From Fictibacillus solisalsi (GTDB lineage Bacteria > Bacillota > Bacilli > Bacillales > Fictibacillaceae): a stretch of DNA of 64,000 nucleotides. Below, in pieces: positions 51,380-59,105 of this stretch. The notes beneath the pieces were generated by a model that did not search any database, was not told where the DNA came from, and was given only the letters and a program-made list of their open reading frames with translations. The position numbers and the translations under genes were made by a program. Location: contig NZ_FNHW01000001.1 of NCBI RefSeq assembly GCF_900103485.1, positions 2,253,057 to 2,317,056 on the forward strand, in the 5' to 3' direction. Numbering within the stretch: position 1 is the first letter of the stretch; each line of letters begins with the position of its first letter.

Positions 51380-52393
51380 TTGAAACGCATAAAAGCCCGG
51401 CTTATGCTCTTCTTTTCACTGGTCTTGACCGCATGCCTGCTGTTATCGGCATGTTCTTCCGATAACGCGGAAAAACAAAAACGTGATCATGTTCGGGTGG
51501 CTGAAGTAACCCGGTCCATTTTCTATGCACCCCAATATGTTGCGATTGAAAAAGGCTTCTTTAAAGACGAGAACATTGATGTGGACTTAAAGACCACATG
51601 GGGCGGAGATAAAACCATGACCACGCTTTTGTCCAACGGAGCAGATATTGCACTTGTCGGCTCTGAAACATCCATTTATGTGGATGCCCAGGGAACGAGC
51701 GATCCTGTCATTAACTTCGCACAGCTTACCCAAACGGACGGAACTTTCCTTGTGGCCCGGAAAAAGCCGGATTATTTTTCCTGGGATCAGCTCAAAGGCA
51801 GCACCTTCCTCGGACAGCGCAAAGGCGGAATGCCACAGATGGCAGGTGAATTCAGCTTGAAGAAGCACGGAATTGATCCTCATAAAGACATGAAGCTGAT
51901 CCAGAACATCGACTATGCCAACATTCCAAACGCCTTCGCTTCCGGTACTGGGGATTACGTGCAATTGTTCGAACCACAGGCAAGTCTGTTCGAACAAAAA
52001 GGCATCGGTCATGTGGTGGCCTCTTTCGGTGAAGCATCCGGAAAGCTGCCATATACATCCTATATGTCCAAACAAAGCTATATGAAAAAGAACGGTGATG
52101 TCCTCAAACGCTTTACCAAAGCGATCTATAAAGCGCAGCTTTATGTAGAAACCCATACGGCAAAGGAAACAGCAGAACTGATCGCTCCGTATTTTGAAGA
52201 CACACCCGTTGATCTGATTGAAAAGGTTGTGGACCGCTACAAAGGACAGCACAGCTATGCGGTGAATCCGATCCTTGAACAAGATGCCTGGAATAACTTG
52301 CAGTCGGTCATGAAAGCGGCAGGAGAGCTTCCAAAAAAAGCGGATTACAAGAAACTGGTTAACACCACCTTTTCCCGTGATGCCACAAAGTAA
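51380..52393 (+). CDS. ytlA: ABC transporter substrate-binding lipoprotein YtlA
   Basis: A 337-residue SsuA/ThiY-like (NMT1) binding lipoprotein. The signal peptide ends in lipobox LLSAC with the acylated Cys near residue 26. The mature part opens VRVAEVTRSIFYAPQYVAIE and contains LKGSTFLGQRKGGMPQM. It delivers its ligand to YtlC/YtlD. Ligand unknown; no TPP or other riboswitch is visible upstream. It starts at TTG 51380 with SD AAAGGAGG. Confidence 0.88.
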   Translation: MKRIKARLMLFFSLVLTACLLLSACSSDNAEKQKRDHVRVAEVTRSIFYAPQYVAIEKGFFKDENIDVDLKTTWGGDKTMTTLLSNGADIALVGSETSIYVDAQGTSDPVINFAQLTQTDGTFLVARKKPDYFSWDQLKGSTFLGQRKGGMPQMAGEFSLKKHGIDPHKDMKLIQNIDYANIPNAFASGTGDYVQLFEPQASLFEQKGIGHVVASFGEASGKLPYTSYMSKQSYMKKNGDVLKRFTKAIYKAQLYVETHTAKETAELIAPYFEDTPVDLIEKVVDRYKGQHSYAVNPILEQDAWNNLQSVMKAAGELPKKADYKKLVNTTFSRDATK

Positions 52394-52421
52394 ATCATAA
52401 AATTACGATGGAGGGATGACA

Positions 52422-53201
52422 GTGGCCTTCTTACAATTAAAATCGGTTGGTCAAACGTACTTTTCCAAGCAAACGGCCACGACTGCATTAGAAGACATTA
52501 CACTCTCTGTCTCCGAGGGAGAATTTGTTTCCTTTTTAGGACCGAGCGGATGCGGAAAGTCCACCCTGCTTTCCATTATCTCGGGTCTAATACAGCCAAC
52601 GAACGGCACAGTTTCCTTGAGAAATCAGCGGATTACAGAACCCCATCCGAAAATTGGATATATGTTGCAGCAAGACTACCTTTTTCCCTGGAAGACAATT
52701 AAAGACAATATTTTGGTAGGATTAAAACTTCAAGGTTGCCTGAACGATGAGCGCATCTCATATGCCCTATCCCTGATGAGCGAAATTGGTTTATCTGATA
52801 CTCTGGATAAATACCCAAATGAATTGTCCGGCGGCATGAGACAGCGTGTGGCACTTGTCCGCACACTCGCAACCAACCCGCAAATTCTCCTGCTGGATGA
52901 ACCATTTTCCGCGCTTGACTATCAAACCAAACTTAAACTTGAAGATCTGGTCTCAACTACGCTGCGTGAACATGGCAAAACAGCGGTTCTGGTCACACAC
53001 GATATTGGGGAAGCCATCGCCATGAGCGACCGGATCATTTTATTTTCCACAAAACCCGGCAGAATCTTTCGGACTTTTCCGGTATCCGGCCATCTGAGAA
53101 AGCGTCTGCCGTTTGAAGCGCGCCAGCATCCTGATTATTCCGTGATGTTTCAGCAAATTTGGGAGGAGTTGGAACAAATTGAACAAAACGACACCGAGTA
53201 A
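52422..53201 (+). CDS. ytlC: ABC transporter ATPase YtlC
   Basis: A 259-residue ATPase of the SsuB/TauB group. Walker [16 protein letters not shown]-loop [10 protein letters not shown], signature [11 protein letters not shown], Walker [13 protein letters not shown] and H-loop [13 protein letters not shown] 52422 is 6 nt after GGAGGG, and the product then begins MAFLQL like B. subtilis YtlC; ATG 52416 touches the SD. It overlaps ytlD by 23 nt. Confidence 0.92.
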
Positions 53202-53988
53202 AACCCACTCCGACTACTTGCTGAACCTGCGCAAACAAACAATGAATGTCAGACTATCTCAGCTTTTGATTTTCGTTCTCTTTTTCGGTCTTTGGCAGTA
53301 CAGTTCTGACCAAAAATGGATCGATCCACTTCTCTTTAGTTCTCCACAGAAAATCCTTACATTGCTTGCTGATAAAATAGCGGACGGTAGTATTTTCGTT
53401 CATATAGGTATGACCCTTACCGAAACAGTTATTGGCTTTTTGCTTGGGACATTGTTAGGAACCCTGCTCGCTGCCCTGATCTGGTGGTTCCCCTTTCTCT
53501 CCAGAGTTCTTGATCCGTACCTCGTCATCCTAAATGCGATGCCAAAAGTCGCCATTGGCCCTATACTGATCGTAGCTCTCGGGCCCAATCTAACATCAAT
53601 TGTGGCCATGGGGATCTTAATCTCTGTTATTATTACAACCATCGTGATCTATACGTCATTTAAAAATGTAGAACCAAACTATGTAAAAGTCATCCAGTCG
53701 TTCGGAGGTTCAAAATATCAATGTTTTAAAGAAGTCATCCTGCCCGCCTGTTTTCCGGCGATTATCTCGGCGCTGAAAGTAAATGTCGGCTTATCCTGGG
53801 TTGGGGTCATTGTTGGAGAGTTCCTTGTTTCCAGACAAGGACTGGGCTATCTTATTATTTACGGTTTTCAGGTGTTTAATTTTACCCTCGTATTGATGAG
53901 CCTTCTGATTATCGCCTTGCTGGCAACTCTTATGTATCAGCTTGTCGAAGTTCTTGAAAAAAAGCTGATCAAGAACCGCACACTGTAA
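53179..53988 (+). CDS. ytlD: ABC transporter permease YtlD
   Basis: A 269-residue permease of the SsuC type with about six helices. Coupling (EAA) loop [20 protein letters not shown] and [22 protein letters not shown] are present. It starts at TTG 53179 (SD GGGAGGAG) within ytlC. Together with ytlA and ytlC it forms a complete importer, probably for a sulfonate-like, nitrate-like or pyrimidine-type small molecule. Confidence 0.9.
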
Positions 53989-54065: not shown

Positions 54066-55343
54066 TTACGCCTCTTCCAGGTTGCCGAATGATCCAAAGA
54101 ATTCATAGTGAATATCCTCTTCGGGGACTTCCCATTGCTTCAGTGCAGAGTTGACCACCTGCATGAACGGTAATGGACCGCAAAAGTAAAATTGGGCATC
54201 TTTTGAGGGTAATACCTCCTGAAGCCATTCAAGTGTAATGTATCCTTCACGGTCAAAATACTCTTTTTCACGGTCCTGGTTTGATGGCTGTGTATAAATA
54301 AAATAAGATGTGATATTTGGATTTTGTTCACTTACCTTGCGAACTTCTTCCCTGAACGCATGGACGCTTCCATTTTGCGCCGCTTCAATATAAACAACCC
54401 TTCGATCAGGCTGATTGGAATTGATAGTATGCAGCATGCTTGTAACCGGAGTCAGACCAACCCCTCCACTGATGAGCACAACCGGCCGGTTACTGTTGAC
54501 ATCCAAGTAAAAGTCGCCCGCAGGAGCAGAAATGGGAAGAACATCCCCCTCATTGTATAACTGATGCAAATCCGTGGATACCACACCGGGTCCTATGTCT
54601 TCCCCTTTTGGCCCTTCACGCTTTACACTGATTCGGAAGTAATCCAGTCCCGGCCGGTCAGACAGGCTGTATTGTCTCAGGTGTGTATATTCTTCCTGGG
54701 GGATTTCCACTTTCACTGTAATGTATTGTCCCGGAAGGAATGATGGCAATGCTTGTCCATCTTCAGGCTTTAGGTAAAACGAGGTAATGACTTCACTTTC
54801 CCTTACTTTACGGTCAATGATAAAATTTTTAAATCCTGCCCAGCCGCCAGTCTGAGTCTCTGCACTTTTATAAAACCCTTCCTCCATTTTAATAAACGCA
54901 CTTGAAATAATCTGGTATGCATCTGCCCATGCATCAAGGATTTCGTCAGTTGCCGCATCACCGAGGATTTCTTTAATTGCCCCCAGCAAATGTTCGCCTA
55001 CAATGGGATAATGCTCTGGTTTTACCTGCAGACTTCGGTGCTTCTGGCCAATCCTCTCCAGGACAGGCATGATCTGACTGAGGTCTTCGATGTTTGCTGC
55101 CGCTCCATACACAGCATCCGCCAATGCTTTTGGCTGATGGCCGGTGATCTGGTGGGTCATATTAAACATGTTTTTCAATTCGGGATGACTTTCGAATAAC
55201 CGCTGATAGAATTTCTTGGTAATTGCCTCACCATGTTCTTTGACAACCGGAAGTGTCTGTTTGATCACTTCTAATTTTTTTGGATCCAGCTGTTTTACCA
55301 TTTTAGTTACTTCTTCGAACTGTTCCTGTTTGTTTCTATCCAC
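54066..55343 (-). CDS. hmp: Flavohaemoglobin Hmp (nitric oxide dioxygenase)
   Basis: A 425-residue NO dioxygenase. The globin domain has the haem-pocket region NMFNMTHQ and the proximal His region VKPEHYPIVGEHLLGAI. The FAD domain has LRQYSLSDRPG and the NAD domain has VLISGGVGLTPVTSML. It converts NO and O2 to nitrate and protects the cell from nitrosative stress. GTG 55343 is chosen for SD AAAAGGAGG at 8 nt; this gives ~14 residues before the usual globin start (Met 55301, MVKQLDPKK), which lacks an SD. Monocistronic. Confidence 0.92.
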   Translation of the reverse strand: MDRNKQEQFEEVTKMVKQLDPKKLEVIKQTLPVVKEHGEAITKKFYQRLFESHPELKNMFNMTHQITGHQPKALADAVYGAAANIEDLSQIMPVLERIGQKHRSLQVKPEHYPIVGEHLLGAIKEILGDAATDEILDAWADAYQIISSAFIKMEEGFYKSAETQTGGWAGFKNFIIDRKVRESEVITSFYLKPEDGQALPSFLPGQYITVKVEIPQEEYTHLRQYSLSDRPGLDYFRISVKREGPKGEDIGPGVVSTDLHQLYNEGDVLPISAPAGDFYLDVNSNRPVVLISGGVGLTPVTSMLHTINSNQPDRRVVYIEAAQNGSVHAFREEVRKVSEQNPNITSYFIYTQPSNQDREKEYFDREGYITLEWLQEVLPSKDAQFYFCGPLPFMQVVNSALKQWEVPEEDIHYEFFGSFGNLEEA

Positions 55344-55432
55344 TAGAAAAGCCTCCTTTTCTACACTACACGTACCCCAATTCAGCTTTAGCAACGCATG
55401 GTATTTTTATACAAATTTCAACTTTTACGGAA

Positions 55433-56165: not shown

Positions 56166-56469
56166 TGTTATAAATCCACTCATCATTTTCAAACGCGATG
56201 TTAGGATTTCCAACTCGGAGTTTAGTTTATTAAATTTTATTTTAATGTATTGAACAATATTTAACTTAACATCCCTTTTTTCATTTGTAAACCCCAAAAT
56301 AGCTCGATTTTAGAAATATAAAAAAATGAAAAAGTGCCATTTAATGTAGGAATTTTATATTTTTCTCTGATTTTTTTTGAGCATTTGACATAAGAATTAA
56401 TTCCTGTAACATAGATGAATGTAAGAAAAATTTTTAACGAATTAAATTTTTCTAATAAGGATGGTTGGA

Positions 56470-57027
56470 ATGCAAGATCATAACGATAGGGCTCGGGAAG
56501 CGATTGAACGAGCGAAGGGAAACGTTGTCCATTCCATTGCAGAAACGATGGATCTTTATGGAGTAACTCCTTCAGCAGGCAGACTCTATGGAACTATGTA
56601 TTTTGAAAACGCCATGACGCTTGATGAAATGAAGGAAGAGCTGAAAATGAGCAAACCGAGTATGAGCACGGCTGTTCGGACACTTCAAGAGATTAATGTG
56701 GTTCATAAAACGTGGCAAAAAGGTTCACGTAAGGATGTTTTTGTTGCGGAAAAAAATTTTTTCAAATCACTTATTCATTTTTTCTGTATTAAATGGATGC
56801 GTGAAGTGAGGCTTAATCTGAAAGCCATTGAACTGTCGGAGGTGGATTTACAGGCCGTGATTCAAAATACAAAGGTGGATAAAGCTATTCGTGCCGACGC
56901 ACATCGCCATTTTGAGCTGATCCATGAATCAAAGAAGTATTATTATTGGCTTGAAATGCTTGTTGACAGTTTTGAGACCGGAGACATTTTCCGCTATCTG
57001 CCCATACCGGATGACGATAAAAAGTAA
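56470..57027 (+). CDS. GbsR/OpcR-family MarR-like transcriptional regulator
   Basis: A 185-residue regulator of the GbsR family. An N-terminal helix (HNDRAREAIERAKGNVVHSI) precedes the winged helix-turn-helix GRLYGTMYFENAMTLDEMKE, with recognition-helix region MSKPSMSTAVRTLQEINVVH. The C-terminal helical half (about 90-170) is aromatic-rich (KKYYYWLEMLVDSF). Known members (GbsR, OpcR, OpuAR) repress choline or glycine betaine genes and some sense choline directly. ATG 56470 has AAGG 10 nt upstream; ATG 56461 touches it. It lies upstream of the CHT1-like symporter, same strand. Confidence 0.87.
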   Translation: MQDHNDRAREAIERAKGNVVHSIAETMDLYGVTPSAGRLYGTMYFENAMTLDEMKEELKMSKPSMSTAVRTLQEINVVHKTWQKGSRKDVFVAEKNFFKSLIHFFCIKWMREVRLNLKAIELSEVDLQAVIQNTKVDKAIRADAHRHFELIHESKKYYYWLEMLVDSFETGDIFRYLPIPDDDKK

Positions 57028-57382
57028 ATCACCCTGGTAATTCCACAAAACAGTAAGATCGCTTAATCCCCATCGCATGAGTGGGGAGCGGGGAATTTTG
57101 TTTCTTACAACAAACATTCACTGGAAAAGCGGGTACTGCACCCCCTGTCCCTTTTAACCTCGTATGCATGTGGAAAGAAAAGGTTTCTTCATGAGAAGCC
57201 CTCTTCTACGCGCTGTTTTCTGATTTTTTCCCCTTCCCGTATTTTTCTTACTATTTATTACAATTGAATGAAACCAACATCCAGAGCCAGGCTGCATTAT
57301 GAATGCTCCCTGCAAATTCAAGCGTTTTAATTCTATTCCAGACCTAACACGAAACACTAGACTATAGGAGGTTGGTAGAAAC
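57028..57382 (+). other. 355-nt intergenic region before the CHT1-like symporter
   Basis: It contains a TCCCCA/TGGGGA hairpin (57067-57087) that may terminate the regulator gene, although its T-tract is poor. A short GGACAGGGGGTGCAG-type fragment lies near 57132-57150 on the minus strand. No ORF is credible. The final 150 nt must hold the symporter promoter and probably the regulator's operator; I cannot point to either with confidence. Confidence 0.4.
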
Positions 57383-59071
57383 ATGAGTATGAATGCACCA
57401 AAACAACCAAATTCAGGTGGCGTACCCCAGGTAGGCCGCAAAAGCAGCAAACCACCGTTTTGGAATCCCTTAACGGTCGCCGTTACCGGATTTATTGTCT
57501 TTTCATTAATCACCCTTGGTTATTCCTTATTTGCAAAGAAAACCATCTATTGGCCAGGATTGTTCATCATGCTTGGACTGTATTGCCTGTTTTATTACAT
57601 TGGCGCCAAAGCCGTTGAAAAACGCAAAGGAAAAACGGACGATATGCTGGTCGCCGGCAGGTCCATGCCGCTCTGGCTGTCGATGTTTACCATGACGGCG
57701 ACATGGGTGGGTGGTGGCTATATTGCCGGGACTGCAGAAACTGTTTATTCCGATGGTATTGTGTGGACGCAAGCGCCCTGGGCATATGCGATCAGCCTGA
57801 TCCTGGGCGGCATCTTCTTCGCCCGTAAAATGCGAAGAATGGAATTCATGACCATGCTGGATCCTTTGGAGTCAAGGTTTGGGAAGAAGATGGCTGGATT
57901 GCTTTATATCCCTGCCCTTCTAGGTGAGTTATTTTGGAGTGCAGCCATTTTAACAGCTCTTGGTACAACATTTGGTGTTATTTTAGGCTTAAGTTTTACG
58001 GTTTCCATTATTTTCTCGGCGATCGTCGCCATCGCTTATACCGTTGTTGGAGGACTATGGGCGATTGCTCATACAGATGTACTGCAAATCACCATTATGT
58101 TTGCAGGACTTCTACTTGTGTTGCCTTTTGCATTTTCACACGTTGGAGGGTTCCAGGAAGCCTTCAGTAACTATTCGGGAAATATGAAAGGTGCCACAAG
58201 CATGTTCCCGCCGCTTACCGGGTGGGATGATCCTGAGTGGGGCAAAAAGTATTGGTATTGGTGGGACTATGCGCTGCTCCTGATCTTTGGAGGAATTCCT
58301 TGGCAGATCTATTTTCAGCGGGTTCTTTCGGCCAAGAACGAAAATGTTGCGATGTGGTTATCCATCTCTGCTGGAGTGCTTTGTGCTCTCGCAGCGATTC
58401 CACCGACTTTGATCGGAATCGCCGGATTTAATGCAGACTGGGCTTCCCTTGGTACTGCCAAACCCCAGAATGCTTCATTAATCCTGACCTATGTATTCAA
58501 ATACATGACCCCGGAAATGGTTGGAGCGATTGCACTTGGCGGTCTGGCAGCCGCAGTTCTTGCAGCCGTTGCTGCTTCATTCCTGTCCGCTTCAGGCATG
58601 GCTTCATGGAATGTTTACCGTCCATTAACCAAAAAGAAAGCGACGCCACAGCAGCTGCAAAAAGTCATTCGCCGCTGTGTAATCATCATCGGTGTTGGGG
58701 CCACATTGATTGCATTGAATACGAAAAGTGTTTATTCACTATGGTATTTATCAAGCGACATGGTTTATTGCATCCTTTTCCCGCAATTAACCTGTGCACT
58801 CTATTACAAATGGGCCAATAAATATGGATCTATAGCGGGATTCTTGGTGGCAATTATCTTAAGATTCGGCGGAGGGGAACCTGTGCTGAATATACCAGCA
58901 TTTATTCCTTATCCATTGGTCGAGAATGGAACCATCTACTTTCCCTTCCGTACGACCTCCATGCTTGCCGGGCTTTTCACGATCCTTGTCGTGTCTTACC
59001 TGACACGTCATAAATGCCCGCCGCTCCCTCTTACCAACGTAAGAAGGAATAAACAAGAAACTGTTCAATAA
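57383..59071 (+). CDS. Sodium/solute symporter closely resembling choline transporter CHT1 (SLC5A7)
   Basis: A 562-residue SSS-family symporter. Long blocks match the animal high-affinity choline transporter: FTMTATWVGGGYIAGTAE (human TATWVGGGYINGTAE), TMLDPLESRFGKKMAGLLYI, IPALLGELFWSAAI, FGGIPWQIYFQRVLS, KSVYSLWYLSSDMVY and LRFGGGEPVL. The aromatic residues at the CHT1 choline site appear conserved (W108, Y135, W185, W307, W454). An extra hydrophobic helix (about 30-50) precedes the canonical first helix. SD AGGAGG 11 nt before ATG. Downstream of a GbsR-type regulator; Na+-coupled choline uptake for osmoprotection is inferred, not shown. Confidence 0.85.
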   Translation: MSMNAPKQPNSGGVPQVGRKSSKPPFWNPLTVAVTGFIVFSLITLGYSLFAKKTIYWPGLFIMLGLYCLFYYIGAKAVEKRKGKTDDMLVAGRSMPLWLSMFTMTATWVGGGYIAGTAETVYSDGIVWTQAPWAYAISLILGGIFFARKMRRMEFMTMLDPLESRFGKKMAGLLYIPALLGELFWSAAILTALGTTFGVILGLSFTVSIIFSAIVAIAYTVVGGLWAIAHTDVLQITIMFAGLLLVLPFAFSHVGGFQEAFSNYSGNMKGATSMFPPLTGWDDPEWGKKYWYWWDYALLLIFGGIPWQIYFQRVLSAKNENVAMWLSISAGVLCALAAIPPTLIGIAGFNADWASLGTAKPQNASLILTYVFKYMTPEMVGAIALGGLAAAVLAAVAASFLSASGMASWNVYRPLTKKKATPQQLQKVIRRCVIIIGVGATLIALNTKSVYSLWYLSSDMVYCILFPQLTCALYYKWANKYGSIAGFLVAIILRFGGGEPVLNIPAFIPYPLVENGTIYFPFRTTSMLAGLFTILVVSYLTRHKCPPLPLTNVRRNKQETVQ

Positions 59072-59075
59072 GAAT

Positions 59076-59105
59076 AAAAAGACCGGGACTTTCCCCGGTC
59101 TTTTT
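59076..59105 (+). terminator. Terminator of the CHT1-like symporter gene
   Basis: AAAAAGACCGGG/CCCGGTCTTTTT stem with a 6-nt loop, 5 nt after the stop. Confidence 0.92.

Follow-up and report, generated by a model that had tools for sequence, protein, structure and literature searches.

A CHT1-type transporter of Fictibacillus solisalsi that lacks the TM8 sodium ligands and may import choline without Na+

The window analysed here, a stretch of 64,000 nucleotides from the 4.8 Mb genome of Fictibacillus solisalsi, encodes an SSS transporter that resembles the human choline transporter CHT1 (SLC5A7) and, upstream of it, a regulator of the GbsR/CudC family (Table 1). The aromatic residues of the choline cage are those of CHT1. 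The side chains on TM8 that bind sodium in CHT1 are all missing from the transporter, as they are from a clade of related proteins. The favoured reading, to which a probability of roughly 0.57 is assigned, is that the transporter is a GbsR/CudC-regulated choline importer whose lineage has discarded the side-chain ligands of sodium and which would import choline without Na+. It appears slightly better than an even bet that a whole CHT lineage, spread across eight families, lost Na+ coupling with its pocket nearly unchanged. Its members would then be either uniporters driven by the membrane potential or H+/choline symporters with D232 (and H230 in most of them) as the proton site.

CHT1 feeds choline to cholinergic neurons, and how ions are coupled to choline in it is still open. 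A natural homologue that has the same pocket minus the TM8 sodium ligands would be a ready-made test of the roles of these sites. It may also represent a second route, besides that of CbrA, by which an SLC5-type protein can leave sodium, and it is a caution against labelling every bacterial CHT as Na+-dependent.

Table 1. Positions in the window of the two genes and of the features assigned to them
Feature	Position	Strand	Basis
Weak promoter-like site ahead of the regulator gene: TTGACA, 16-nt spacer, TAACAT	56385..56412	+	motif scan
Weak candidate for a GbsR operator: A/T-rich inverted repeat that closely follows the promoter-like site	56424..56453	+	
GbsR/CudC-family MarR-type regulator, 185 aa	56470..57027	+	NCBIfam NF047500, 253.1 bits, cut-off 218
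CHT1-type (SLC5A7-like) SSS transporter, 562 aa	57383..59071	+	structure-sequence search, sfCHT alignment
Codons H230 to Q235, core TM5	58070..58087	+	alignments; D232 and Q235 kept
Codons A394, A395, V396, A397, A398 (TM8)	58562..58576	+	ungapped alignment
7-pair hairpin followed by a T run, directly after the transporter stop; likely terminator	59081..59105	+	by eye

Identity of the transporter

Searched against proteins whose structures have been solved, the transporter matches sfCHT, from Salimicrobium flavidum, best (727 bits, E 1.5e-217), with human CHT1 second (382 bits, E 6.7e-113). The next SSS protein, vSGLT, follows at 57 bits (E 1.5e-14), and this gap in E values places the likeness to the CHT proteins beyond chance. 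The alignment with sfCHT is gap-free and contains 315 identical residues out of 527 (60%); identity to human CHT1 is 45% over the aligned columns. A homologue in F. fluitans NE201 is a 96% identical protein. The SSF domain (PF00474) is matched in the Pfam scan at 127.2 bits, compared with a cut-off of 22.8, and the general SSS model TIGR00813 gives 146.1 bits, which is under its cut-off of 184.

The models for proline and pantothenate transporters are matched far under their cut-offs. In a tree of SSS proteins, 40 CHT rows, with the transporter, CHT1 and sfCHT among them, separate with a support of 100/100 from eight other rows, namely vSGLT and seven SSS paralogs encoded in this genome. An assignment to the proline, pantothenate or sugar transporters, which the earlier note had named as the outcome that would speak against it, finds no support in view of the far lower scores and this grouping. 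Judged by descent and by the residues of its pocket, the transporter is a member of the CHT1 clade; it is not filed here as a Na+-coupled CHT. The coordinates (56470-59071) and the length of 562 residues in the earlier note are exact, and the CHT1-like segments quoted there are present in the protein. A LeuT fold is inferred from the 60% identity to sfCHT; a structure prediction computed from two sequences, the transporter and its F. fluitans homologue, reached a mean pLDDT of only 33.8.

The choline cage and other conserved positions

Residue equivalences to sfCHT can be read directly off the ungapped alignment. The cage residues W108, Y135, W185, W307 and W454 correspond to W99, Y126, W176, W298 and W445 of sfCHT and to W62, Y91, W141, W254 and W406 of human CHT1, so that the five pocket aromatics listed in the earlier note are borne out. 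A list of 21 positions was compared between the proteins with and without the TM8 ligands. Sixteen of these positions are at least 90% conserved and identical across both classes, and they include the five cage aromatics, the chloride loop, the gate residues R93, Q312, R313 and S316, and D232 and Q235. Only position 230 and the four TM8 ligands differ between the classes.

D232 corresponds to human D188 and is kept in all 15 members of the clade described below. Q235, which is likewise kept, corresponds to Q226 of sfCHT and Q191 of human CHT1. Position 230 is His in 13 of the 15 clade members and Gln in two; the 43 other proteins all have Tyr, Phe or Leu there. In L112/L130 (genome G952), one member of the sodium-site-less clade, W185 is replaced by Cys and Y135 by Phe; its substrate may have changed.

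Loss of the sodium ligands on TM8

S346 and S347 contribute their hydroxyls to the Na2 site of human CHT1, and A60, V63 and A343 their backbone carbonyls; D188, D349 and S350 make up Na3, the site of a probable second Na+ (PMC11589582). Transport by human CHT1 is abolished by S346A, S347A or D188A, each alone (PMC11589582). Residues A394, A395, V396, A397 and A398 of the transporter align with human S346, S347, A348, D349 and S350. All four TM8 side-chain ligands of the human Na2 and Na3 sites are thus alanine in the transporter. The equivalent of A343, a backbone ligand, is A391.

The pattern AA/AA at these four positions was found in 14 of 58 aligned CHT proteins and GS/AA in one (L112); SS/DS is present in 42 and SS/DA in one (L121). 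Both Na2 serines are therefore retained in all 43 proteins outside the ligand-loss group. When the five TM8 columns are removed, the tree recovers the same two groups, and the 15 ligand-loss proteins form one clade supported at 100/100. The clade spans eight families (f1, f15, f45, f194, f202, f206, f207 and f209). Some members are near copies of each other: clustering at 90% identity leaves nine clusters from the 15 clade proteins and 25 from the 43 others. In these 58-protein sets sfCHT is counted through L058, which is identical to it over 527 residues, and L049, which ends at a contig edge, covers 88-561. Two interrupted genes (L070 and L071) were kept out of the alignments and trees, a repeated F. 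fluitans record (L072, the same as L009) was dropped from the alignments, and two further partial matches in G262 were set aside.

Ser or Thr is found at both Na2 positions in CHT1, in sfCHT and in five of the seven SSS paralogs compared, which makes loss of the ligands the natural direction of change. Six of these seven paralogs have Ser at the first Na2 position; the genome contains 11 other SSS genes in total. Human CHT1 is placed beside the clade in the SSS tree (80/40) and inside an unresolved fork (96/96) in the column-removed tree. This position was not interpreted, since the branch of human CHT1 is long. The same 96/96 fork holds L113 (G983), a CHT with intact sodium ligands and as such a helpful reference for the clade.

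The transporter is under purifying selection and is not decaying: comparison with the F. fluitans copy gives a dN of 0.022 and a dS of 0.612 (dN/dS about 0.04). The F. fluitans protein has the same TM8 residues, with different alanine codons in the two copies for A395 and for A397. Reading frames are intact over the aligned part in all 15 clade members, L049 being cut by the contig end. Conservation of at least 90% within both classes is found at 205 positions, of which only 10 differ between the classes, all four ligands among them; this comparison depends on the definition of the classes and records a single event in evolution. The interrupted homologues L070 (G039) and L071 (G081) contain in-frame stops, each beside a high-scoring betaine-aldehyde dehydrogenase gene; some lineages are apparently losing the carrier by decay.

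Gene context and distribution

Genes for GbsR, betaine-aldehyde dehydrogenase, choline dehydrogenase or GbsB are present in the flanks of 56 of 59 homologous loci, where the flanks fetched were several kb per side and unequal. Such neighbours occur at 15 of 15 clade loci and at 41 of 44 others, the latter including L070 and L071, which were counted without an ion-site class. At three loci (L054, L061 and L133) no betaine or gbsR gene was found in the fetched flanks. In the window, the regulator is the only gene of this kind that adjoins the transporter, from which it is separated by 355 bases. A second gbsR, at another place in the genome, is divergent to genes for a betaine-aldehyde dehydrogenase (736.6 bits against a cut-off of 668.6) and the choline dehydrogenase BetA (877.5 bits against 732.1). 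The pocket and this context make it very likely that the transporter imports choline. It need not be the sole route, because the genome also encodes a betaine BCCT carrier and OpuAC-type ABC genes.

CHT homologues were counted at thresholds that ranged from 1e-60 to 1e-150 by search and with the query genome included where it was searched. They were found in 39 of 397 genomes of the order, in 18 of 398 drawn from the class, in two of 26 of one family and two of seven of the genus, and in five of 10 genomes of another genus, these five being already in the order sample. A draw of 398 genomes of the phylum yielded none beyond that of the window itself.

Three genes beside the CHT in L057 had been candidates for opuA and were ruled out by their sequences. 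In the F. solisalsi genome, an OpuAC-type binding domain (L085/L086, C4:2759143-2760000) is matched in two pieces, one of which has an in-frame stop, possibly owing to a frameshift.

The regulator and local DNA elements

The upstream gene had been described as a choline-linked regulator of the GbsR type, which agrees with its match to the CudC model of that family. An in-frame ATG is also located at 56461. Like GbsR, OpuAR and CudC, the regulator has a recognisable inducer segment, in which F, F, S, L, F and F occupy OpuAR positions 93, 94, 96, 97, 100 and 101. It therefore has four of the six cage aromatics, compared to five of six in the second GbsR of the genome; the cage positions were taken from Table 1 of PMC6207618 and placed by spacing, in an alignment made without OpuAR or B. 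subtilis GbsR. The inducer cage of B. subtilis GbsR consists of six Phe, and OpuAR, with four aromatics, binds both choline (Kd 193 uM) and glycine betaine (PMC6207618). What sets the cage of the regulator apart is Ser at position 96 and Leu at 97.

For GbsR of B. subtilis, a roadblock mechanism downstream of the start site has been described (PMC7396694). The position of the inverted repeat relative to the promoter-like site would fit such a placement, and the repeat is a candidate operator only. As a GbsR operator it is not significant, because 33 of 300 dinucleotide shuffles matched it. It differs from the F. fluitans sequence in one base, the third, and a core taken from it turned up in few of the further upstream regions compared and is absent ahead of the second gbsR and of gbsA. 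The promoter-like site is also found in the F. fluitans copy; it is one of eight such sites in the region, where shuffled sequence averages 6.9 (sd 2.5), so that the set as a whole is not significant. Between the two genes, the 355-base gap contains no repeat above chance (133 of 200 shuffles do as well), and a hairpin there is weak (z -1.12). The terminator-like hairpin after the transporter was not listed by the scan that covered it.

Ion coupling

The kept cage and exit gate point to choline as the substrate, and the missing ligands leave no canonical Na2 or Na3 site. Choline would enter through a CHT1-type carrier without Na+. Because choline is a cation, the membrane potential alone could suffice to drive it inward, in which case the protein would be a uniporter. 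Alternatively, protons would replace Na+, and D232, which is kept despite the loss of its Na3 partners, would serve as the buried acid. Inside the cell, BetA and the betaine-aldehyde dehydrogenase, whose genes lie at another locus, would oxidise choline to glycine betaine, and repression by GbsR would be lifted by choline.

The SSS domain of CbrA, which lacks the Na2 ligands, takes up histidine with protons (PMC7918813), and K196 occupies its empty Na2 site (PMC13022988, a preprint). CbrA thus appears to be a precedent, within the family, for SSS transport driven by protons. A weaker precedent is an SSS paralog in the same genome that resembles MctC and ActP (L001, C4:1191432-1192637). Its two Na2 positions read A-V and a Lys takes the place of Q235, and it scores 645 bits with the MctC model (cut-off 670) and 598 bits with the ActP model, both below cut-off. 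MctC is termed a proton symporter and ActP a sodium/acetate symporter (PMC7918813), so that the paralog, through its likeness to ActP, cuts both ways. The 15 clade proteins have no Lys like that of CbrA or of this paralog. Proton coupling would thus have to work without its usual residue, which leaves D232 as the proton carrier or the membrane potential as the sole driving force for choline. H230 was considered as the proton site and set aside: it tracks the clade, but two members have Gln in its place.

The transporter could nevertheless be an ordinary Na+-coupled choline symporter like sfCHT, in which backbone carbonyls and Q235 (and D232) would hold the ion and the serines would be dispensable. 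Na+ in sfCHT is held by A97, T98, V100 and Q226 and not by serines (PMC13220886). All four of these contacts are kept in the transporter, which is a point against the Na+-free reading, as is clade member L112, where the GS/AA pattern goes with the absence of W185. Sodium coupling is also favoured by the retention of D232 throughout the clade, by the 60% identity to a transporter of proven Na+ dependence and by the paralog L001, which resembles the sodium/acetate symporter ActP and also lacks the Na2 hydroxyls. On the other hand, human CHT1 is dead with either S346A or S347A alone (PMC11589582), and Na2 substitutions are described in a review as highly deleterious in all transporters investigated (PMC7918813). 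Moreover, the transporter lacks the whole set of four TM8 side chains, a loss confined to one clade, and both Na2 serines are kept by all 43 CHT proteins aligned outside it. Sodium coupling of the sfCHT kind therefore seems rather unlikely, although it has a serious case. The 'Na+-coupled' choline uptake module of the earlier note is supported as regards the CHT1-type transporter, its choline pocket and the choline-type regulator, and a link to betaine synthesis is supported as well. Its sodium part, proposed with the alanines at the TM8 ligand positions of both sites overlooked, is probably wrong for this clade.

Two further readings concern the substrate and the mode of action. The substrate might be another quaternary amine, such as glycine betaine, carnitine or a choline ester. 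The regulator cage is unlike the six-Phe cage of B. subtilis GbsR, and the four-aromatic OpuAR binds glycine betaine besides choline, which would suit this idea. However, the transporter matches proven choline transporters in its five cage aromatics and in its exit gate, genes for choline sensing or oxidation are neighbours at every clade locus, and the genome already has its betaine BCCT carrier and OpuAC-type ABC genes; a substrate other than choline is improbable. CaiT is an antiporter, and the loss of Na+ sites in LeuT-fold proteins can go with exchange or sensing, as in CbrA, which is a transceptor. The transporter could in the same way be an exchanger or a sensor and not a net importer. 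The Pfam scan found no attached signalling domain in it, and a neighbouring betaine synthesis pathway needs net import, so that such a role is given very little weight. Na+-free import of choline remains the preferred reading.

Relation to known systems

The bacterial CHT sfCHT is Na+-dependent, with transport data and structures (PDB 9RWS and 9RWT) reported in PMC13220886, a paper that itself counts the full characterisation of ion coupling among its limitations. The transporter shares with sfCHT the choline cage, the R/Q/R/S gate and the A, T, V and Q contacts to Na+, and differs from it in having four alanines in place of S385, S386, D388 and S389. The Na+ dependence of sfCHT was established by assay, whereas the transporter is known here from its sequence. 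L058 lies in a locus with betA and gbsR. The residues of the choline cage and of the chloride loop are common to the transporter and human CHT1; S346, S347, D349 and S350 of the latter are alanine in the transporter and Tyr186 is replaced by His230. CbrA and the MctC-like paralog resemble the transporter in missing Na2 ligands. They have other substrates, however, and the Na2 site of CbrA is filled by Lys, with no counterpart in the transporter.

The earlier note had overstated the novelty of a choline transporter of this family next to gbsR. Besides the Na+-dependent sfCHT (PMC13220886), choline import for betaine synthesis was proposed in 2018 as the role of SSS genes found within gbsR clusters in B. 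licheniformis and B. megaterium (PMC6207618); sections 17 and 21 of that paper do not analyse the sequence or the ion sites of the transporter. In B. megaterium osmoadaptation, gbsA and gbsB are induced by salt (PMC7053513), and the word "symporter" is absent from the main text of that report. Loss of sodium ligands in CHT proteins is not reported among the top-ranked openly licensed papers in PubMed Central. The choline reading is thus supported and largely published in kind, and the loss of the sodium ligands is the new point.

Other genes in the window

The segment at 51380-53988 encodes an NMT1/SsuA-like binding protein, an ABC ATPase and a probable importer permease, a locus that is shared with F. 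fluitans. It is followed, at 54066-55394 on the minus strand, by the gene for an NO-inducible flavohemoprotein (562 bits, cut-off 432).
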